In this document: positions 47,640 to 57,359 of the stretch, in pieces
How the letters are laid out: every line of letters begins with the position of its first letter
Position numbering within the stretch: position 1 is the first letter of the stretch
Source of the DNA: Oligoflexia bacterium
GTDB taxonomy: Bacteria > Bdellovibrionota > UBA1018
Length of the DNA: 64,000 nucleotides
Direction: 5' to 3'
NCBI GenBank assembly: GCA_014376785.1
Contig: JACMQW010000080.1
Location: 42,285-106,284, forward strand
Notes under the pieces: model-generated
What the model was told of the DNA's origin: nothing
Seen by the model: the letters and a program-made list of their open reading frames with translations, nothing else
Databases searched by the model: none
Made by a program: the position numbers and the translations under genes

Positions 47640-47945
47640 TCATGAGCCGCTCGAAATCAAAACAGACTTTGCAGAAATGACCTTCCGAAAGTCGTCGGTA
47701 ATACGGGACCAATCTAAGAGATCGACTTTATAAGGAAGAGAGGATTGAGAAAGGTCCGATTCCAGTTGCGACCATTTCGAAAGATCGAGGGGCACATCGG
47801 CTTTTAGACAGACGTCGAGATCCGACGTTTCTTTAAATTTGTCTCCCACGCGAGAACCGAAGAAAGAGATGGTCACGTTCGGAAAGTAGGCCGAGATGAC
47901 CGAGGTTAGGTAATCGCCCTCTTGCTGGGTCCATCCTTTTTTCAC
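47640..47945 (-). CDS. MNT-type nucleotidyltransferase of a HEPN/MNT module
   Basis: 101 residues. The minimal nucleotidyltransferase motif is FFGSR (30-32) followed by SDLDV with Asp42 and Asp44. In HEPN/MNT toxin-antitoxin pairs this protein inactivates the HEPN RNase by AMPylation or binding. Its start overlaps the HEPN stop (ATGA), the usual order. The C-terminus is short but contains the third acidic strand (KVDLLDW). Confidence 0.85.
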   Translation of the reverse strand: MKKGWTQQEGDYLTSVISAYFPNVTISFFGSRVGDKFKETSDLDVCLKADVPLDLSKWSQLESDLSQSSLPYKVDLLDWSRITDDFRKVISAKSVLISSGS

Positions 47946-48328
47946 GCTTTTAGCTTCTTCTCGAGTTCAGAAATCATCTCATCACAAAGGGCGGGAAGCT
48001 GAATGGCATCCCGATACACTTCTTCGGCCGTATCGGCGTTATAGGTATGTGAAGTCAGGTTTCTCGATTTATGAAAAGAGAACCACTGATCGATGTGAGT
48101 AATGAGTTTGAGCTGGTGCGCTTCGCGCAAGATTCCTTTAACGCTGTCGTCGGAAAGGGGAGCATTCGATTCAAGAAAGCGTTTTAAATTTTTCCAGGAT
48201 AGTTCGAATGTGTATTCGAACCTTTGAATGACTGAGTCGCGGGTAAATTCGTTCAAAGGTTGCCCGATCGCCAGTTTCAAACTGCCGAGCGCTTTTTTTA
48301 AAGGGGCGAGTGATTGCTCATTCATCAT
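47942..48328 (-). CDS. HEPN-domain protein (HI0074 type) of a HEPN/MNT module
   Basis: 128-residue four-helix protein of the nucleotidyltransferase substrate-binding (HI0074) family: FEYTFELSWKNLKRFLE and the Rx4-6H RNase motif as Arg89-x4-His94 in SRNLTSHTYN. It is the toxin partner of the MNT protein. The pair sits next to a tRNA scar and an IS21 remnant, in an accessory patch. Confidence 0.85.
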   Translation of the reverse strand: MMNEQSLAPLKKALGSLKLAIGQPLNEFTRDSVIQRFEYTFELSWKNLKRFLESNAPLSDDSVKGILREAHQLKLITHIDQWFSFHKSRNLTSHTYNADTAEEVYRDAIQLPALCDEMISELEKKLKA

Positions 48329-48638: not shown

Positions 48639-49712
48639 TCAAGGCCAATGTCGGTTGAGATTTCGCATTCGGAGGCGAGTTTCGCGTATGAAGCGGTAAG
48701 GGACCGAGTAAAAATTCTTCTCCACCTGAATATGACAATCGGGATGAACTTTCGCCGTCCGGTACTCGGCCGTCTCAAACGCCACGGCGGGTAAGGGCTT
48801 AAGGAGGGGCTTTTCAGTGGCGAAGCGCTCCGCACGCGTGACGCCGTAATCCTTCATCACCTCATTGTTCAGGCGTTTTAAATATTCCCGGAAGCAAACA
48901 TTCAGCTCACCGAGCGAATAAAATACTCGGTTCCGGGTCTCAGCAAAAAACTGCCGCTGGATCACCCCGATATTCCCTTCGATTGAGGGCTTATCCCGCG
49001 GTGTCCGCGGACGAGCGGGTAAAACCGCAAATTCCATGTGGTTTGCGTAGTCGATATAAACGGGATTCACGTCCGGGTCGTAAATATGAGCCTGTGATAC
49101 GCCGCTCTTTAAGTTGTCGACAACAAGGTACGGAAGTACGCCAGCAAAAAAATAATGCATTCGGTCCTGGCTTGCGATGAATTCCTCCCGTTTCTGGGTG
49201 ACCGAGAACTCACCGAAGGTGTAATCGCTAAACGAACTCACGCCCGCAGATAAATGCGTCTTCTTCGTTGCCCCCGTTTTCCTATCCGTGACCCCGATCC
49301 CGTCGCAGTAGTCGATCTCGACCCGCTGCCCGGGTTTATGCTGGAAGCGAATCCGTGCTCGCTCGGCAGGGTCAGTGGGGATACTCCGCTTCAGTTCACG
49401 CCAGAACCGGAGGTAATCATCCCCGGCCGGCGCGTGCTCCGCATGGAGGCACCTTATCGTCGCGTAACGATGCCCGAGCTCTTCTCGAACCTTCTCCCAG
49501 TCGATACTCGAGGACCAATCAGCTTCGCAGGATTCGGACGAACTCTTTCCAGGTACGACGAGCGAAGGTCCCGCCTGGTCTGTCCGAACTACGCCCTTCA
49601 CCGTATTTTTCGAGATCCCGAGAATCTGGGCGATCCGTTTCTTCCCGATCCCTTTTTTATAGAGGACTAAAATCTGAGCTTTCACCTGATGACTTTTCCT
49701 ATCTCCCACCAT
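48639..49712 (-). pseudogene. istA: IS21 transposase IstA, C-terminally truncated
   Basis: The start at 49712 has AAAGGAG upstream. N-terminal helix-turn-helix (KKRIAQILGISKNTVKGVV) and a complete DDE triad: Asp134 (VEIDYCDG), Asp199 (YLVVDN), Glu245 (KPSIEGNIG), with spacing 65 and 46. About 357 residues against the family's roughly 500. After FYSVPYRFIRE the frame changes: a plausible continuation (LASECEISTDIG) lies in another frame and soon stops. No istB follows, so the element cannot move by itself. Confidence 0.82.
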
Positions 49713-49779
49713 CGACGCGTTCTCCTTTGTCGATGATGAGCGTAGGTCAAAACAGCCCGGAATACCTGACCAGACCCCT

Positions 49780-49892
49780 GGGGTCATTTCGTGAAAACGA
49801 CGGGGTCAGCTTGGTGAAAACCCTGGGGTCAATTCAGGTGAAAAGAGGTGGGGTCAGCTTACTGAAAACGTAGGGGTCAGCTCGCGTGAAAT
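49780..49892. repeat. Five tandem end repeats of IS21 (transposase binding sites)
   Basis: GGGGTCA followed about 6-8 bases later by TGAAAA, repeated five times at 49780, 49802, 49825, 49850 and 49873 (period 22-25 bp). The last copy is degenerate (TGAAAT). Such multiple sites mark IS21-family ends. Confidence 0.8.
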
Positions 49893-49929: not shown

Positions 49930-51375
49930 CTATGCGGCAATTAATAGATCGATGTCTAGCACGCAGAGATACTCGCCATTGTGTAAGACGAAACCGAGAA
50001 TCGGAACGTTTTTGAGATACGGGATCGACTGGGTTTTTATTTTTCCTTGGATCATGCACGTGACATCTGACACCCGAAGCGCGATCGGATCACCCTCTTT
50101 ATTTTTCACGATGAGGCGAATGGCTTGTTCCGACGGGAGGGGTTGGGACAGAAGTTTTTGTCCCAAGTCGATTTCGGAGAGGATTTCATCCGCGTTCGAT
50201 CGATAAAGTCCATATCTTTGGTCTTTTAATCCGGACCGAGCTTGGTTCTCGACCGAACACATCTGATATGAGGGAATGGAGAAAAGTCTCTTTCCTCCTT
50301 CATGGTGAATTTCGAAAACCAGAAACTGCTCAACCGCATTCACCGCCGCTGTACAACGAACCCGGAGTTCAGAGCCTTTGCCGGGATCCTGTTTGGACTC
50401 GAGGCGAAGAGCCAGCGCGTTCCACGTAGAGGGGTCGATCGTGATTTGCGTTTTCCCTAAACCGTCGTCTTTGATCGAGAAGTAGAGATAGTTTTGCTCC
50501 TTCCATACCGTGCATTCCAGGTTCAAGTGCTCCGACTTTTCGGCGTTCGTTCGTTCTTCTCCGTTTTTTTCGGACGAGCGATAGAGGACCTCATCGAGCC
50601 AAAGATTGGCCGTAGCACGAAAGCATTCCGCTACATCGGAGGGAACGTTTTCCTCGCCGAGCTGATTGTTCGCTGAAACTACGACTTTCAGTTGAAACCC
50701 GGTGAGTTTCGAGACCGCCATGAGTTCGATGCTATCGAGTAGGTCACCGGCGGGAATGCCCGAGGTTCGGCTGAACTGTAGCGCTGCTTCATTCGTGAAA
50801 TCATTGAGCTGTCGTCGGAGGTTGTCTCCCGATGAAATGTCGTTCGAGCGTGACCCCTTCAACGAATACATTTTCTCAATGATGCTCCGTAATTGACGAG
50901 CGGATCGGGAAGTGGTTTCGATAAGCTTTCGGCTCAGATCCACTTTCTGCTTCACTGCTGGAATCGGATCGGCGGCGAGCTTATAAAGCCAGTATATCGT
51001 TTCCGCGTCGAGGTGCTTCTCGATCTGACCGAACATGTAAGAGAGCGCGCCGCCGCGGGCCATCAGCTCAGGGCTTGCCTCGCCTTGGAGCATGGCCTGA
51101 TACTGCATCTGAGCGTTATAGCGGGCCCATTCTAGTCTCCATGCGAGCCAAGTTGAGGGAAGAAGTTTTAGTACCTCGGACTCATCTCCCTCCGGGGAAA
51201 CATCAGTCATTGTGGACAAGAGGCTCCCTGCTAAGCCCGCGACCCAGGTTCTTACGCGGTCCTTAGCTTCATCGGAAAGGCTCGGCATTTCGTCGAGCAT
51301 CGCCGAAAGGAGGATGCGAAAGGTGTCACTGTCTAATTGTTCCTTCAATACAGGTAAAATCGGTCCTGAAAACAT
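49930..51375 (-). CDS. CheA-like protein with degenerate kinase domain and CheW-like C-terminus
   Basis: 481 residues, soluble. Residues about 1-150 are helical with no Hpt His motif. Residues 150-200 resemble the CheA dimerisation helices (KLIETTSRSARQLRSIIEKM). Residues 200-345 resemble the CheA ATPase domain (FQLKVVVSANNQLGEENVP, then DDGLG and GKGSELRVRCTAAVN), but the N box (normally HLxRNAxDHG) reads ECFRATANLWLDEV and the G2 glycines are missing, so ATP use is doubtful. Residues 355-481 look like a CheW domain (FEIHHEGGKRLFSIPSYQM ... IPYLKNVPILGFVLHNGEY). It is the last gene of the PYP operon, 3 bp after the ligase. Likely an adaptor linking the photoreceptor to chemosensory signalling. 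Confidence 0.72.
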   Translation of the reverse strand: MFSGPILPVLKEQLDSDTFRILLSAMLDEMPSLSDEAKDRVRTWVAGLAGSLLSTMTDVSPEGDESEVLKLLPSTWLAWRLEWARYNAQMQYQAMLQGEASPELMARGGALSYMFGQIEKHLDAETIYWLYKLAADPIPAVKQKVDLSRKLIETTSRSARQLRSIIEKMYSLKGSRSNDISSGDNLRRQLNDFTNEAALQFSRTSGIPAGDLLDSIELMAVSKLTGFQLKVVVSANNQLGEENVPSDVAECFRATANLWLDEVLYRSSEKNGEERTNAEKSEHLNLECTVWKEQNYLYFSIKDDGLGKTQITIDPSTWNALALRLESKQDPGKGSELRVRCTAAVNAVEQFLVFEIHHEGGKRLFSIPSYQMCSVENQARSGLKDQRYGLYRSNADEILSEIDLGQKLLSQPLPSEQAIRLIVKNKEGDPIALRVSDVTCMIQGKIKTQSIPYLKNVPILGFVLHNGEYLCVLDIDLLIAA

Positions 51376-51378
51376 AAA

Positions 51379-52761
51379 TCACAATACGCCTTGCAGCGCC
51401 TCCTTGAATGTTTTTCCCGAGCGGTGTTCCGCTATTTCCCGTAAGGCAGCGTCGATGACTCGGGTTTGAACTCGGGCCATTCCTCCAAGTCGTTTTTCCA
51501 AAAATTCGACGATTCGCATCTTTATCTCTTGAGGCTCACGAAGCGGACCATCCGTGAGGAGCAGCACTTCAGCTCCTTCACTCTTGTGGACGATAATCGC
51601 GTGTTGAATTCCAAACCCTCGCTCGATTTCGGATTCCACAAGTTCACGCGCAGTCCAGGTTCCGTCCCGCAGCTTTAATCGGTTTCCAGTGCGTCCCAGG
51701 ATGCGAATCTCTCCACTAACGGACTCTATTTCGCAGAGGTCTCCAGTCTTTAGAAAATGGTCGCTGGTGAGCTGATGCGCGCGCTCATCCCAAAATCCAA
51801 TCGAAGGAGAGTGCACCTCAAGCTCCGAGTCTGCATTCGTGCGAATCACAGTTCCTGGCAGCACTCGGCCATCGAGTAGAATCCCCGGACCGCATTCGGT
51901 CATCCCATATCCTTCGATCAAATTCCGAAAATGCCCGCGGGCGTGTTCGAGGGTTTTTTCGCCGACCAATCCGCCGCCCACGTGGATGTTCAGTGCTTGA
52001 TACTCAGAGAGCGGCCTAGAAAGCAAAAAATCAAGTTGTCTCGGGACCAGAGCCAGCCATTCGGGTCGATCGCGTTGAATAGTCTCGCGAACTCGGGCGA
52101 AAGAGGGCGGCTTTCTTAGCGTGCCGTAAATGACGAGATCTTGCTTGGCAAAAAGTCCAAGCAGCAGATCTAGGACAAGGCCAAAGGCGTGATGCCAAGG
52201 TAAAATACAGAGACGCGTGCTCTCGGATGCTGGGCGAAGGACTTCCAAGTGCGAATCAATCTGATACAAGATTGCCTCCGCACTGAGAACGACAGATTTC
52301 GGTCCATGTCCCGAAGTGCCGCTGGTCTGAAGAAGCAGAATCGGATTCGCGAGTTCGCCCTTCACATTCGGAGAGGAAATCGGCTGCCCTGTTCGGGCCT
52401 CCCATGCACGAGACTGCGACGCCGGCAAAAAGACGCTCGGTTTCGCACCGGAGTCTCCAATCATATGGACCGATCCCTGGTCCAACAGTTCCATCGGCCG
52501 CGGCCACAAGATGTGATGGCCGATCCCACAGGCAACGAGGTCGATTACGAATTCGATGCCACGGGCCTCGGATCGCACAAAATCTCCGGCTCGAAATCCT
52601 AACCGGCGCCACTGATGGCGTCGTTCCAGAGCAAGATTCCAAAGCGCTGCCGCGCTCAGGATTGTCTCTTCCCCGTCCTCGTTCCAACGGAGGACGGGAT
52701 AAGCGTTTCCGCGCAGGAGACCTTTCAACCGCGTGGCCAAATCATGCGGATTCGAATGCAT
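51379..52761 (-). CDS. pcl: 4-coumarate-CoA ligase-like enzyme for the PYP chromophore
   Basis: 460-residue member of the acyl-AMP-forming family: P-loop LLQTSGTSGHGPKSVVLS (about 143-160), EGYGMTECGPG, KTGDLCEIE, GRTGNRLKLRDG and the C-terminal catalytic Lys450 in HRSGKTFKEAL. Slightly short for a 4CL (about 500-560). It would activate p-coumarate as the CoA thioester, the form from which PYP acquires its chromophore. It overlaps the lyase gene by 20 bp. The function rests on the neighbours: the fold alone would allow any acyl-CoA ligase. Confidence 0.85.
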   Translation of the reverse strand: MHSNPHDLATRLKGLLRGNAYPVLRWNEDGEETILSAAALWNLALERRHQWRRLGFRAGDFVRSEARGIEFVIDLVACGIGHHILWPRPMELLDQGSVHMIGDSGAKPSVFLPASQSRAWEARTGQPISSPNVKGELANPILLLQTSGTSGHGPKSVVLSAEAILYQIDSHLEVLRPASESTRLCILPWHHAFGLVLDLLLGLFAKQDLVIYGTLRKPPSFARVRETIQRDRPEWLALVPRQLDFLLSRPLSEYQALNIHVGGGLVGEKTLEHARGHFRNLIEGYGMTECGPGILLDGRVLPGTVIRTNADSELEVHSPSIGFWDERAHQLTSDHFLKTGDLCEIESVSGEIRILGRTGNRLKLRDGTWTARELVESEIERGFGIQHAIIVHKSEGAEVLLLTDGPLREPQEIKMRIVEFLEKRLGGMARVQTRVIDAALREIAEHRSGKTFKEALQGVL

Positions 52762-54154
52762 TCCAACTCTCCAGGTTTAGGGTCTTGGGAACCGATCCCG
52801 TGGCACGTAAAGTAGCGGCTCTCTGGGCTATAAAACGAGAAGCGCGAGTGATTTCTGCTGCCGTCTGAATCATCTGATCAAGCGAGATCAAAGCGGCCAT
52901 CGCCGCGGGGACAACGTCCTGGTTATTGCTTTCGCAGCTGAAACTCAGGTTTCTCGAGGGCACACCGTGCGCCCGGACGCTCTGCAAAAGGGAAGAAATC
53001 AGTTGATGGATGCCCTTGACGTGTCCCGCGCCAGGGTGCACGAGGTTGGGTGGCAGACCATGACTGAGTTCGCTATCCACGAGGAGCAGGCACTGACGGT
53101 CGAGGAGCTCACTTGCACGTGCAACGGAATCAGCGATGAGGTCCGCCGCTGTTGAAAGTCCAACCGCGTAAAAGTGGCCGCCATGCCAGAAAGAGCCTTG
53201 GGTAAAGACCGGGTTGTCTGCCACGCTTAAAGCTTCCGAAACGATTCGCTCCCCGGCGGATTCAAGGTTCCAGCGACAAATGCCAAGCACTTGCGGAGCG
53301 CAGCGTATAGAATATCGCTCCTGTAGAAGCGGGAATTGAATCGGAATGGCCCCTTCGCCCGTCCAACCCACTATTCGCTTCATATGAGCCTGCGCATCGA
53401 GGATTTCCTCTCCCACCCTGCGCGGATAAGGTCTTGCCGGATTGATCCCCAGTCCGCGAGATTCGAATGGTTCGGTGACCCCACCGAGGGCAATCGCACT
53501 CAATGCCGTAGTTTCGACTGCGGATGTCACGATTCTACGCGCACGCGAAAAGAGTTCCACGGCAAACGCGCTCATCATGGAATTGGTGTTCACAAGGCCG
53601 ATGACGTCCCGAGGTCCTCGAGGAAGTGTTTCTTTAAAGAGAGGCGCGATGGCATGAGCCATCGGGATCAGGTCTCCGCTTGCGCCTAGACTTCCATGTC
53701 GAGGAACCGTTGGAAGGTCCGATCGATTCGAAAGTTCACAGAGTGATCGAAAAGTTTCCGGATGAACCCCCGAGTAACCTTGGGCGGTCTTCCAAGCTTG
53801 AATCCGAAGCCCTCGTCGCACAATTTGCGGAGAAAGCGCCTCTCCAACGCCTACGCATAGATAGTCCAAAAGCTCTCTCTGCGTTGTTCGCCAGTCCGAT
53901 GGATCTTTTTTCGTCGTGACGTCCGCTCCGTATCCGGTGTGCACGCCGTAGACACGACTCGGATGCGAGTGCAGGAAACTCATACAAGACTCAAACGAAA
54001 CGCGAACCCGCTCAAAGTCCGACCGACTAGACTCGAACACCAGGTCTTGGAGACCGAGGCGTTCGAGCCAAGCAATCGATTCAGCAGCGAGGTCGTCTGT
54101 TCGAGACGGGCTTTCAAGTGAAGCAGCTCGATCGTCTCGCTGAGGGAGTGTCAT
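52742..54154 (-). CDS. tal: Tyrosine ammonia-lyase-like MIO enzyme
   Basis: 470 residues, HAL/PAL family. The MIO-forming triad Ala158-Ser159-Gly160 is in SLGASGDLIPMAHA; the catalytic Tyr70 is in VYGVHTGYG. It should deaminate tyrosine to p-coumarate, the PYP chromophore precursor. At the position of the tyrosine-selecting His-Leu of Rhodobacter TAL it has Tyr98-Leu99 (ELLDYLCVG); HAL has Ser-His and PAL has Phe-Leu there. So substrate choice is inferred from context. It overlaps the coiled-coil gene by 4 bp (ATGA). Confidence 0.88.
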   Translation of the reverse strand: MTLPQRDDRAASLESPSRTDDLAAESIAWLERLGLQDLVFESSRSDFERVRVSFESCMSFLHSHPSRVYGVHTGYGADVTTKKDPSDWRTTQRELLDYLCVGVGEALSPQIVRRGLRIQAWKTAQGYSGVHPETFRSLCELSNRSDLPTVPRHGSLGASGDLIPMAHAIAPLFKETLPRGPRDVIGLVNTNSMMSAFAVELFSRARRIVTSAVETTALSAIALGGVTEPFESRGLGINPARPYPRRVGEEILDAQAHMKRIVGWTGEGAIPIQFPLLQERYSIRCAPQVLGICRWNLESAGERIVSEALSVADNPVFTQGSFWHGGHFYAVGLSTAADLIADSVARASELLDRQCLLLVDSELSHGLPPNLVHPGAGHVKGIHQLISSLLQSVRAHGVPSRNLSFSCESNNQDVVPAAMAALISLDQMIQTAAEITRASRFIAQRAATLRATGSVPKTLNLESWNAFESA

Positions 54155-54525
54155 CCGCTTTCCTTCCCGTTCGATTCGGCGTCTGTAAAGAGTGCCGCCT
54201 CCATGATAGCGGCGCCGATGCTGCGTGCTTTTGCCTTTTTGGCCCTCAGTTCGGTGTGGATCGCACGAAGCTGCGCCTCAAGCTCCATCTTTTCATCGGT
54301 AAGCGCGATGACCTGGCTTTCCAGGCTCGAGATCGAGTCTGCGATGCTGTCCAGATCCGCCGGAAGCGATTGCCGTTCCTGATACATGGAGACGAGTTGG
54401 GCCTCGAGGCTTTCGATCATCTCCGCCATCTGAGAAGTGTCGCCGGCAGACTGCTTTTCCTCATAAAGCGAAACGAGCTGGGCCTCAAGACTGTGGACCA
54501 TTTCCCGGAGCTGTTCTTCTCTCAT
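54151..54525 (-). CDS. Small coiled-coil repeat protein of the PYP operon
   Basis: 124 residues, almost all helical. Three repeats with a period of 27-28 residues (four heptads): SLEAQLVSLYEEKQS at 12, SLEAQLVSMYQERQS at 39, SLESQVIALTDEKME at 67. The C-terminus is basic (RAKKAKARS) and then Ala-rich. The RBS GAGGA lies before the ATG. I know no family. Its place between PYP and TAL suggests a structural link between photoreceptor and signalling partners. Confidence 0.75.
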   Translation of the reverse strand: MREEQLREMVHSLEAQLVSLYEEKQSAGDTSQMAEMIESLEAQLVSMYQERQSLPADLDSIADSISSLESQVIALTDEKMELEAQLRAIHTELRAKKAKARSIGAAIMEAALFTDAESNGKESG

Positions 54526-54564
54526 AGTTTTCCTCGGGTCGTTTGATAAGCCATAATGGAAGCC

Positions 54565-54933
54565 TCATTTCTTCTGGACGAAAATCCAATTCGTCTTTGA
54601 AGCTTTATCGTGAACCAGGTGAATGGCAACGTTCGTCGGTTTCATCTTGTAGGTGAAGGTGTAGTTGAACATCGAGTTCAATTCGCCCGCTTCGACCCCG
54701 GCTTTAAATTTGCCGAAGAAGAGTTTGTTGTTTGTGCATGGGGCGATATCCGTGAAAAAGTTTTTTCCTTCGGCGGAATTCACCGCTACACCCGCAAGGT
54801 CGGATTCATAGCGATTGTACAGTTGGATCTTACCGGCAGTGTCGACTTTAACAACGCCGTAAGGAACGGTATCGACATCCGATCGGGTTAAGTTTCCAAG
54901 TTTCGACATAATTTCAGGACCTACGAAGCTCAT
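54565..54933 (-). CDS. pyp: Photoactive yellow protein
   Basis: 122 residues, the PYP PAS fold. Aligned by eye to Halorhodospira PYP (offset -3): chromophore Cys66 in DIAPCTNN (Cys69), Tyr39 and Glu43 in LYNRYES (Tyr42, Glu46), Met97 in YKMKP (Met100); FGKFKAGVEAGELNSMF and the C-terminal NWIFVQKK also match. Differences: Thr50 is Ala47 and Arg52 is Val49, both near the chromophore pocket, so absorption and photocycle may differ. The ATG at 54933 is preferred because CAGGAGAAAATT precedes it; an in-frame ATG at 54951 has no RBS. It covalently binds p-coumarate and senses blue light. Flanked by the membrane protein gene (upstream) and the coiled-coil gene. Confidence 0.96.
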   Translation of the reverse strand: MSFVGPEIMSKLGNLTRSDVDTVPYGVVKVDTAGKIQLYNRYESDLAGVAVNSAEGKNFFTDIAPCTNNKLFFGKFKAGVEAGELNSMFNYTFTYKMKPTNVAIHLVHDKASKTNWIFVQKK

Positions 54934-54957
54934 AATTTTCTCCTGTTGCATTTAGTT

Positions 54958-56265
54958 TCAGGCCACATTTGAGGTGACCTTTTGGGTGATGGGATCGTCT
55001 CCGACGGGGACCGACAGTGGTATGGCTTTCAGTTCTTCGAGAGAGTCACACAAAATGAGGAGGTGACCGAGAAGGCGCTCGGTATCCTGCTCGCTCTCGT
55101 GCGTCGCTAATCGTGAACACCGAAGCGAGCCTTCGGTCGTTCGGTGGAGATCGTGCAGCCGGGAAAGCAGGCCCGTGAAGTCTGGACGTTCGCCCGATCT
55201 CAAGCAAAGCTCGGCTAAAGTTTCACCATACTCCGAGCTGTCGCGATCCGAGTGAATCTGCGAGGCGCGATTCGATCTCGACTCTTTCCACTGGGTGAGG
55301 ATCCATTCGAGATCCCGGAGCCAAGCGCGGTAGTCGAAGAAGCTGAGGGTTGTCTTTTGTCCCGAGTTCGGTTCAAGGGGTTCCTGCGCCACGCCAGCGA
55401 CTTCAGCGGTTTGAGTCTTGGTGGGTGGCCCTGCCGAATGCGCAGAATTGGCTTCAGGACTCAGTGCAGGGCTCCGGGACTCTCGTTGTCGTGGCCGTAG
55501 AAGCAGGCCGATTGTGAAACAAAGGGCTCCCGTAGAAAGGATTGCAGTCCAGATTTCCCAGGTAGTACTTCGGGCGGAGTTAAGGAAATAGTGCACAAAA
55601 GGAGACGAGGAAGAAGGAACTTTTTGCGAAGCGGAAGCACTGTCCAATTTTTTTAGCGATTCGCGAATGCTGGAGAGAATTGACTGGCCTTCAAGGGTAA
55701 TCTCGTTGGAGAGCCGGTAGCGCATTTCGAGTCCGGGAGAATGCAGCCGTATACCGGCACTAACAACGGCCGCAAAACGCCTCTCTAATAGTCCGTTCGT
55801 TTTTGCGAGGTCGCGCGCCATGCGGAAACGCAGTACTTCTCTCAGAGTAAGGACCTCCGCGACTGAGTTTTTGTATTCTTTCCAGGGGTTTCTTAACCCG
55901 TCACCGAGCTCACCGGCCAGACCGTCGAGTTCATTGAGTCGGTTTTTCAAGACTCCGGTCAGGCGTTGGGCCTCTCCCGTACTGCGACTGAGTTCGAAGG
56001 GATCTATCGGCGTACGGGTCGGGTCGCGCGCCATCGCCTTCAAGAGATCGGAGTGAAATTGGTCCAAATCCTTCCATCGATAAGCAGTGGAAGAAATCTC
56101 AACCGTCTGTTTCTGAAAAACTGTATCGAAACTGGTTAATGCCTGGTGAAGATCCTCACATGCCTGGAATACGTGCGCCTCATCGGCCCCGGCTAGAACG
56201 GGACAAAGGACGATCGAAATGAGAAGAACTGCGGCAGGTATGGTAGCACCCCGTCTTGAATCCAT
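54958..56265 (-). CDS. Signal-anchored single-span membrane protein, first gene of the PYP operon
   Basis: 435 residues: Sec signal peptide (about 1-27, ends VLAGA), a helical periplasmic domain (28-232), one transmembrane helix (235-257, EIWTAILSTGALCFTIGLLL) and a cytoplasmic part (258-435) with a Pro/Ser linker and helices ending in LLGHLLILCDSLEELKAIP. No HAMP, methyl-accepting or kinase motifs are visible. The topology is that of a sensor or receptor. It ends 6 bp before the first possible PYP start. I do not recognise the family. It could be the membrane partner that reads the state of PYP. Confidence 0.78.
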   Translation of the reverse strand: MDSRRGATIPAAVLLISIVLCPVLAGADEAHVFQACEDLHQALTSFDTVFQKQTVEISSTAYRWKDLDQFHSDLLKAMARDPTRTPIDPFELSRSTGEAQRLTGVLKNRLNELDGLAGELGDGLRNPWKEYKNSVAEVLTLREVLRFRMARDLAKTNGLLERRFAAVVSAGIRLHSPGLEMRYRLSNEITLEGQSILSSIRESLKKLDSASASQKVPSSSSPFVHYFLNSARSTTWEIWTAILSTGALCFTIGLLLRPRQRESRSPALSPEANSAHSAGPPTKTQTAEVAGVAQEPLEPNSGQKTTLSFFDYRAWLRDLEWILTQWKESRSNRASQIHSDRDSSEYGETLAELCLRSGERPDFTGLLSRLHDLHRTTEGSLRCSRLATHESEQDTERLLGHLLILCDSLEELKAIPLSVPVGDDPITQKVTSNVA

Positions 56266-56317: not shown

Positions 56318-56537
56318 TTTAACATCGGAGAGGCGAAGTGGGAGGAGGCCAAAGCACGACTCCTCGGATGCAATAGTCAGAACCATGACGGAAGATTTCA
56401 AGAAAGATGTCGCATTTTTATTTCAAGCCGCTTTCTGTCTTAACTTTTCCTGATCTAGATTTTTCTCTTTTCCTGGGTTGTGGTGTAGCCCCCATTTAAC
56501 ATCGGAGAAGCGTCCGGTCCAATTGGGGGCTACACCA
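56318..56537. repeat. Direct repeat pair and long inverted repeat
   Basis: TTTAACATCGGAGARGCG occurs at 56318-56335 and 56495-56512. The second copy sits inside a hairpin with perfect 14-bp arms, TGGTGTAGCCCCCA at 56481-56494 and its complement at 56524-56537. The first copy is inside a smaller imperfect hairpin (CACCTCGCCT/AGGCGAAGTG). The region 56266-56540 between the PYP operon and the Z1-like fragment holds no gene. Confidence 0.7.
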
Positions 56538-56540
56538 ACG

Positions 56541-57359
56541 ATGGTCATTACGTCCAATTTAAAGATGAGAACCGCAAAGGCCGTAAGTTTAACCTATTCG
56601 GGATCAAAGGTTCAGAGTTTGTACATATCCCCAGACTCGGAAGAAATATTGCGGGCGAATTTAGAATGCACGAAGGACTTTCTCGATTCAATCGAGTCCT
56701 ACGGTTGCAAAAGAGGACGCTCGGCATTTGAGGATAGAAGCGCATGCCTTCTGTATAGATCTGTCTCTTGCGAAATTGTCCTTCAATTCTTAGACAGGTT
56801 CCAATCCAGTAAGGCGAATTCGCGGTTCTCCACTGGAATGATCAAAGACTATATTAGTGGACTGTCGAAGTTCGGCGAACTTTCTGCATGGTCGGTGGCA
56901 GTTATGTCCTCGAAAAGCGGTACTCTTTTGGATCTGGGAAATGGGCGGTCGACTTTTATGGTTGATCGCTCGTTCGTAAAGATGGCGAAATCGGAAGTCG
57001 ATCCAACCGCCAAGCATCTTAAAACTGTAACCGCCCCGCGCGACGAGATGATCGACCTAGATGATTTACTTGCCCATCTCAACGCGCGCAACACAGATGA
57101 CCTATTTGAAAAAACGCCCGGCCTGTCCGATGTATCGTACCGTTTGAAGACTAGGCCAAAGGAAAGAGGGTTGGTGCTGCTTTATCCAATTAATCCTAAC
57201 ATAGAACTTACGGAAGCTGACCATATGGCCCTGAGCAGTGAGCCGTCACAAACAGTAATTTTAAAGGCCGTCGCGCCAGTTATTGGCGTGGCTTTTGTGT
57301 TCCCCGAAACACAAAACTCGAAGAGTAAATATAAATACCTCGTTAATAAAACCATCTAG
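56541..57359 (+). CDS. Possible C-terminal fragment of a Z1-domain protein
   Basis: 272 residues from the first ATG after the inverted repeat (a TTG at 56478 would start inside the repeat). C-terminal motifs KERGLVLLYPIN and APVIGVAFVFPETQN resemble the ending of Z1-domain proteins, which occur with MORC-type ATPases in restriction-like systems. The Z1 ATPase core is absent, so this is a truncated tail or a new stand-alone protein. No partner genes (ATPase, nuclease, methyltransferase) are nearby. The AT-rich base use differs from its neighbours. Confidence 0.45.
   Translation: MVITSNLKMRTAKAVSLTYSGSKVQSLYISPDSEEILRANLECTKDFLDSIESYGCKRGRSAFEDRSACLLYRSVSCEIVLQFLDRFQSSKANSRFSTGMIKDYISGLSKFGELSAWSVAVMSSKSGTLLDLGNGRSTFMVDRSFVKMAKSEVDPTAKHLKTVTAPRDEMIDLDDLLAHLNARNTDDLFEKTPGLSDVSYRLKTRPKERGLVLLYPINPNIELTEADHMALSSEPSQTVILKAVAPVIGVAFVFPETQNSKSKYKYLVNKTI

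Follow-up and report, generated by a model that had tools for sequence, protein, structure and literature searches.

A 64,000-nucleotide stretch of DNA (hereafter the window) from an Oligoflexia bacterium of the phylum Bdellovibrionota (GenBank assembly GCA_014376785.1, contig JACMQW010000080.1, positions 42,285 to 106,284 of the forward strand) carries a six-gene operon in which pyp, the gene of photoactive yellow protein (PYP), stands together with genes for a small repeat protein (coil), a CheA-like protein that begins with a helical domain (ND), two predicted chromophore enzymes (TAL and pCL) and a protein with hydrophobic stretches (mem). We propose that PYP, coil and ND form a module that probably passes blue light into chemoreceptor arrays, via an ND carried on a CheA relative from which the kinase motifs are missing. 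The data show directly which genes stand together and how their domains are composed, that kinase motifs have been lost, that PYP and ND tend to occur in the same genomes, and that relatives have natural fusions and che genes in their operons. The novelty lies in the partners coil and ND rather than in the membrane protein.

The pyp operon of the window

All six open reading frames (ORFs) of the operon lie on the minus strand and start with ATG. In the order of transcription, the features are:

54958..56265, minus strand: mem, 435-aa protein; by hydropathy, an N-terminal hydrophobic stretch and one internal stretch of membrane-spanning type
54565..54951, minus strand: pyp, photoactive yellow protein, 128 aa; by TIGR02373, PDB matches and pocket residues
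54151..54525, minus strand: coil, 124-aa protein with repeated LExQLxxLY/MY motifs; a motif ORF adjoins pyp across loci
52742..54154, minus strand: TAL-like aromatic amino acid ammonia-lyase, 470 aa, predicted p-coumarate maker; Pfam PF00221 (Lyase_aromatic), E 1e-76
51379..52761, minus strand: pCL-like AMP-binding CoA ligase, 460 aa, predicted p-coumarate activator; Pfam PF00501, E 1.1e-21
49930..51375, minus strand: CheA-like protein, 481 aa, composed of ND, P3-like helices, a degenerate P4 and a CheW-like P5; by sequence and predicted structure
50941..51375, minus strand: ND within the CheA-like protein (residues 1-145), helical domain of about 135 residues, proposed reader of PYP/coil; by profile matches and AlphaFold2

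The sequence-only reading of this DNA had described six minus-strand genes with overlaps or gaps under 40 bp. This observation is confirmed exactly on re-measurement, the spacing running from -20 to +39 bp (mem to pyp 6, pyp to coil 39, coil to TAL -4, TAL to pCL -20 and pCL to CheA-like 3 bp). The operon lies on contig C50 of a 3.2 Mb Bdellovibrionota genome that is 97% complete and encodes five methyl-accepting chemotaxis proteins (MCPs), CheA and CheW together on contig C29, and six flagellin-type matches. Because the gene set recurs in other genomes, the operon is not a chance line-up.

The comparison covers 45 loci: the window and 44 others obtained when genome contigs were scanned with 44 aligned PYPs. 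The 44 loci were retrieved by two peptide patterns taken from PYPs near that of the window and sample this group only; they include the near-duplicates L036/L038, L053/L057 and L042/L044. By NCBI taxonomy the 45 loci span nine phyla (Bdellovibrionota, Pseudomonadota, Gemmatimonadota, Myxococcota, Planctomycetota, Spirochaetota, Bacteroidota, Ignavibacteriota and Armatimonadota), and nearly all are metagenome bins. The exact six-gene order of the window was seen in none of the 44 other loci. Gene counts per locus refer to the flanks examined.

Coil and ND accompany PYP

The window PYP matches PYPs of the PDB at E about 1e-28 and TIGR02373 of NCBIfam at E 7e-36 with 123.0 bits, short of the equivalog cut-off of 143.05 bits, which is reached in none of the 368 genomes of the window's phylum. 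A second in-frame ATG, 18 bp into the gene, would give a 122-aa form, in the length range of most relatives. The equivalents of Tyr42, Glu46 and Cys69 (Y45, E49 and C72) are invariant in 44 of 44 aligned PYPs; in a wider set of 54, Cys69 is kept throughout and seven depart at Tyr42 (six Phe, one Val), one of these also at Glu46. Identity is 79% to the PYP of L017, the nearest named relative, 62-63% to named Leptospira PYPs and 37-40% to four plasmid-borne PYPs. With Ala at position 50, the protein would be expected to absorb maximally at 435-465 nm, following the range in PMC12826048.

Some PYP-like proteins stand apart from this picture. A 547-aa Bacteroidetes protein (L054:7110-8753) combines six coil motifs with a PYP-like domain whose chromophore Cys is apparently replaced by Gly (by eye), and its locus holds three further PYP matches. 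Divergent PYPs of 34-36% identity in L070, L071 and L072 lie beside histidine-kinase-like, short ligase-like and receiver-like genes (by eye), with neither coil nor ND in the approximately 3 kb examined.

Coil is the most constant neighbour of this PYP group and not an incidental one. Specifically, an ORF with the LxxQLxxLY-type motif lies within 1.2 kb of pyp in 42 of the 45 loci, and among 2,684 ORFs of at least 60 codons the only more distant motif ORF is that of L027, at 4.3 kb from pyp. In L039 the motif is present in a 59-codon ORF, and the sole locus without it is L021, which extends only 635 bp upstream of pyp. Pfam and NCBIfam return generic coiled-coil matches only for coil. Additionally, coil and PYP are fused on one chain in seven loci of the window's phylum (L042, L044, L048, L052, L055, L056 and L069), and a single chain of L116, from the order of Leptospiraceae, carries ND and two coil motifs. 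These natural coil-PYP and coil-ND fusions suggest that coil binds both PYP and ND. As a side observation, a gene of 164-173 aa follows the coil-PYP fusion in loci with ND-CheA (L052:9341-9856, L048:9350-9871 and L069:1856-2350); the L052 product, the copy scanned, matches no Pfam family.

The AlphaFold2 model of ND is all-helical with a predicted local distance difference test score of 95, and its comparison with the PDB gives no significant structural match. By profile, ND is present near pyp in 30 of the 45 loci (in L037 as a partial match at a contig end), and a genome-wide search finds it elsewhere in the genome for 12 of the other 15. Next to pyp it can be a stand-alone protein of some 135-165 residues, as in L033, L041, L046, L047, L058 and L060; just upstream of pyp it forms the C-terminus of CheA kinases of 684-731 residues in L042, L044, L048, L052, L055 and L056; and in the window, as in 10 other relatives of the alignment, it is attached to a degenerate CheA body. 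In Sphaerotilus natans ATCC 13338, pyp and coil are accompanied by both a free ND and an ND-CheA-like gene.

In line with this gene-level association, PYP and ND occur together genome by genome. Of the 368 genomes of the window's phylum, 14 have PYP, 12 have ND and 11 have both, in searches that scored a restricted number of initial candidates from each genome (no more than 10 or 11 among the results listed). ND is thus found in 11 of 14 PYP-bearing versus 1 of 354 other genomes (Fisher p 1e-17, kinship ignored), with a profile iterated on the same ORFs that were later scored and an alignment that contains many of the genomes' own sequences; finds outside this alignment include those in G151, G088, G299 and the 12 genomes with ND elsewhere. 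In the order to which the Leptospiraceae genome G383 belongs (30 genomes, a set that overlaps the genomes of seed loci), PYP is present in 13 and ND in 11, all within the PYP set, and the two PYP-only genomes are those of L050 and L051. In the order of Sphaerotilus natans (399 genomes scored under the same candidate limit, PYP not counted there), ND is found in S. natans alone, beside pyp. Conversely, six PYP loci from outside this group, comprising three plasmid loci and those of G175-G177, show neither the coil motif nor ND in the DNA examined. Joint conservation in relatives had been set beforehand as a refutation test of the sequence-only reading, and it is found for pyp, coil, ND/CheA-like, TAL and pCL.

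ND is fused to CheA bodies with and without kinase motifs

The last gene of the operon had been labelled CheA/CheW-like. Its predicted structure displays a P3-P4-P5 arrangement in which residues 204-479 match the CheA P4-P5 fold, whereas the kinase motifs are lost and a phosphoacceptor domain is lacking. Specifically, the N-box NxxDHG and the G2/ATP-lid GRGxG are missing in all 11 CheA-like proteins aligned, in a gap of approximately 50 residues, and are retained in the host CheA and six other CheAs of the same alignment. The Hpt phosphoacceptor domain gives no match in the CheA-like protein of the window or of L017, the N-terminus being ND instead. The CheA-type body of the window is predicted not to phosphorylate. 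By contrast with these degenerate bodies, the ND-bearing CheAs of L042, L044, L048, L052, L055 and L056 keep RN..DHG and GRG.G by motif patterns, and that of L048, the only one of the six scanned, has Hpt and HATPase by Pfam.

These fusions bear on an alternative in which coil and ND serve the maturation or stability of PYP, as chaperone, chromophore-loading factors or a membrane or oligomer scaffold, while the CheA-like body is a mere scaffold and the light output lies elsewhere. Such a role would fit the closer and more constant position of coil compared with any output gene, the many loci in which ND is a free protein, and the chromophore genes that often share the cluster. However, a loading factor would need no CheA fusion, and the attachment of ND to motif-bearing CheA in six loci and to degenerate CheA in the window and 10 relatives therefore weakens this explanation; the six loci from outside the group, in which PYP shows neither partner in the DNA examined, speak against it as well. 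We regard it as unlikely, although it fares best among the alternatives.

Chemotaxis genes near pyp in relatives

In L017, mem, pyp, coil, CheA-like, TAL and pCL are followed on the same strand by genes for MCP (match at 1.5e-50), CheW (1.2e-40), CheB (2.5e-37) and CheA (Hpt 5.5e-12, HATPase 4.3e-15), with gaps of 18 bp after pCL, 8 bp after MCP and 12 bp between CheB and CheA. The terminal CheA gene was read from contig C14 of G142, which matches the L017 contig in length and in the positions of its genes. The L017 MCP has a receptor signalling domain in two stretches (Pfam) and no evident membrane stretch (by eye). Additionally, an MCP gene shares the strand of coil-pyp in L034, L035, L037 and L041, and one lies on the opposite strand within 5 kb in L025, L026 and L028; L021 starts with an apparent MCP tail (by eye), and L023 and L027 have CheA-type kinases (Hpt and HATPase) near pyp. 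The sequence-only reading had guessed at a light-to-chemosensory pathway. The che genes beside pyp in relatives and the fusion of ND to motif-bearing CheA speak for this guess, which needs amendment in that the CheA-like protein of the window has lost its kinase motifs and lacks a phosphoacceptor domain, and mem does not belong to the core.

A proposed model of the light relay

We propose the following course of events. TAL and pCL would load p-coumarate on Cys72 (Cys69 in H. halophila numbering), and the light-driven change of PYP would alter its contact with coil, which would keep PYP and ND together. ND would then act as the relay of the light signal, handing the change to the CheA-type body fused to it. 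In the window, this body may dock by its CheW-like P5 beside the host CheA, CheW and MCPs and thereby alter the output of CheA to CheY and the flagella, with motility as the inferred response. In the Bdellovibrionota relatives whose ND sits on a motif-bearing CheA, the kinase could be controlled directly.

A wider form of this proposal, which we hold with evenly divided confidence, is that coil and ND are two unnamed families constituting a general relay of clade-B-like PYPs across many phyla, in which coil tethers PYP and ND reads it. ND would then be the first known light-input domain placed directly on CheA, and the CheA beneath it would be either active as a kinase or kinase-dead, in the latter case steering a real CheA within the array.

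Predicted chromophore enzymes and mem

The TAL-like lyase has a GASGDL motif with the Ala-Ser-Gly of the MIO site, aligned to HAL, and homologues lie near pyp in 22 of the 45 loci, the window counted. Homologues of the pCL-like ligase lie near pyp in 19 of 45, likewise with the window counted; its best partial NCBIfam matches are long-chain acyl and succinylbenzoate ligases, far under the cut-off.

The hydrophobic stretches of mem comprise residues 5-33 and 237-256, and the protein matches no known family. Of the 44 other loci, only the two nearest relatives, L017 (E 1e-6) and L018 (E 0.004), yielded homologues, and a protein search that scored the 8,000 candidates with most shared words returned the window's own protein only. 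The membrane protein had been counted among the extra signalling genes of the operon; as it was found in the window and these two relatives only, mem is accessory and lineage-specific by sequence comparison and lies outside the module core.

Evidence that weighs against the proposal

A number of results run counter to the proposed relay. Chemotaxis genes are sparse around pyp: the MCP pattern is found in only 7 of 45 loci, plus L034 by Pfam, and motif-bearing CheA in 8 of 45, counts based on motif patterns that can miss genes (as happened with the MCP of L034), and many loci have no chemotaxis gene nearby by motif patterns and Pfam. Moreover, HDOD genes lie inside the pyp-ND clusters of Sphaerotilus natans (L046:9880-10923, by eye) and of a Gemmatimonadaceae member (L047:10319-11527, Pfam). 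The output may therefore vary, and these HDOD genes are a possible second output.

CheA pathways can serve outputs such as biofilm formation, type IV pili and gene expression, and the module might steer a non-swimming output of this kind through a CheA-type pathway. Besides the two HDOD genes, a PAS histidine kinase and a receiver protein adjoining the module in L019 (Bdellovibrionota) would agree with such a role. Yet a chemotaxis-type array is indicated by CheB and MCP in L017 and by the MCP genes next to coil-pyp in Leptospiraceae, and the host has flagellin genes. We judge this explanation improbable, and place it just after that of maturation factors.

The association of the module genes also has gaps. 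ND is missing from the examined flank in 15 of 45 loci, and for L032, L050 and L051 it was not found genome-wide; G175-G177 bear PYP with no ND found genome-wide, their PYPs being divergent (34-36% identity) and without a coil motif in the approximately 3 kb examined of each. G151 presents the reverse case, ND with no PYP match. One of its ND copies lies on a CheA-like gene that is followed by TAL at the contig end, and because this locus is cut off there, its pyp is possibly unassembled. Gene order and strand differ between loci as well; for instance, TAL, pCL and CheA-like are opposite in strand to pyp in L018, as are TAL and pCL in L023.

In the window itself, no MCP, CheW or CheB gene adjoins the operon. 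The match of P5 to CheW PF01584 is weak in the protein search (E 2e-4, 21.2 bits, cut-off 23.5) and reaches 24.5 bits in the genome search (cut-off 23.5). The lyase has Tyr-Leu at the putative substrate-selectivity position, where tyrosine lyases presumably have His-Leu. Additionally, a transposase ORF with Mu-transpos_C_2 and HTH matches, which we take to be IS21-like, occupies 48639-49891, immediately after the CheA-like gene, and a pair of 42-bp repeats with 79% similarity adjoins the operon end beside it. The transposase and repeats may have separated the operon from che genes such as those that trail the L017 operon. They also adjoin the operon as would suit an ordinary PYP operon with unrelated neighbours joined by chance or recent transfer, as would the lineage-specific mem, but the same partners recur across nine phyla and track PYP genome by genome, and these co-occurrence counts already contradict an explanation that we consider highly improbable.

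Comparison with known systems

The pyp-pcl-tal operon of H. halophila shares with the window the pocket residues and the combination of PYP and chromophore enzymes in one operon; it has three genes, and its description in the part of PMC12826048 considered mentions neither coil nor ND nor a CheA-like gene. Clade B PYPs of Leptospira adjoin chemoreceptors without sensory domains, for which phototaxis has been proposed (PMC9664959). This PYP-MCP adjacency resembles the relatives described here and agrees with L037 and L041, whereas the same part of PMC9664959 names no conserved coil or ND partner and mentions no CheA or CheW in the same operon.

PYP is likewise joined to the chemotaxis machinery in MCP-PYP fusions, for example that of Nitrincola alkalilacustris (PMC12826048). 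There the link is a covalent fusion with the MCP, whereas the window PYP stands on a chain of its own and would reach a CheA body by way of coil and ND. A further PYP-containing protein tied to CheW/CheA is the CheW-binding Ppr of Rhodocista centenaria, which is a fusion of PYP, phytochrome and histidine kinase (PMC2993699). CheA relatives that lack domains are also known from the split CheA3/CheA4 of Rhodobacter sphaeroides, which cooperate in a chemotaxis cluster; in this pair the His domain and the kinase are divided between the two proteins, whereas the window protein lacks both and has ND (PMC6829392).

A survey of 984 PYPs and 113 predicted operons lists, in its Table 2, GGDEF, EAL, PHY, V4R, MCP, REC and histidine kinase domains, pCL, TAL and BLUF, and gives MCP no operon count in the part considered (PMC12826048). 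In that part, the main text leaves CheW and coiled coils unmentioned and names CheA twice, in the discussion of MCP fusions, and the full text counts one "coiled-coil". The route from single-domain PYPs to their signalling partners is named as a gap in the parts considered of both PMC9664959 and PMC12826048. In the literature searches made, which covered papers without their supplements, we found no published description of coil, ND or a pyp-CheA operon. If correct, the proposed module would supply the missing relay for a much-studied photoreceptor, would represent a chemotaxis kinase that takes light input without a chemoreceptor fusion, and would offer small parts for light control of CheA. 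With the conserved coil and ND, their fusions and the che-bearing operons, the question of the PYP partner can be put to a direct test, both in vitro and in the named strain Sphaerotilus natans ATCC 13338.

Neighbouring genes of the window

Beyond the transposase ORF, two overlapping small genes at 47640-48328 resemble a nucleotidyltransferase/HEPN-type pair (by eye). On the other side of the operon, a divergent 293-aa ORF at 56478-57359 shows partial similarity to MzaC from the anti-phage system MZA (E 5e-18, well short of the cut-off). Between the operon and this ORF, an 18-nt element occurs twice, 177 bp apart (56318-56537), and its second copy overlaps a 17-nt inverted repeat and the loop of that repeat.

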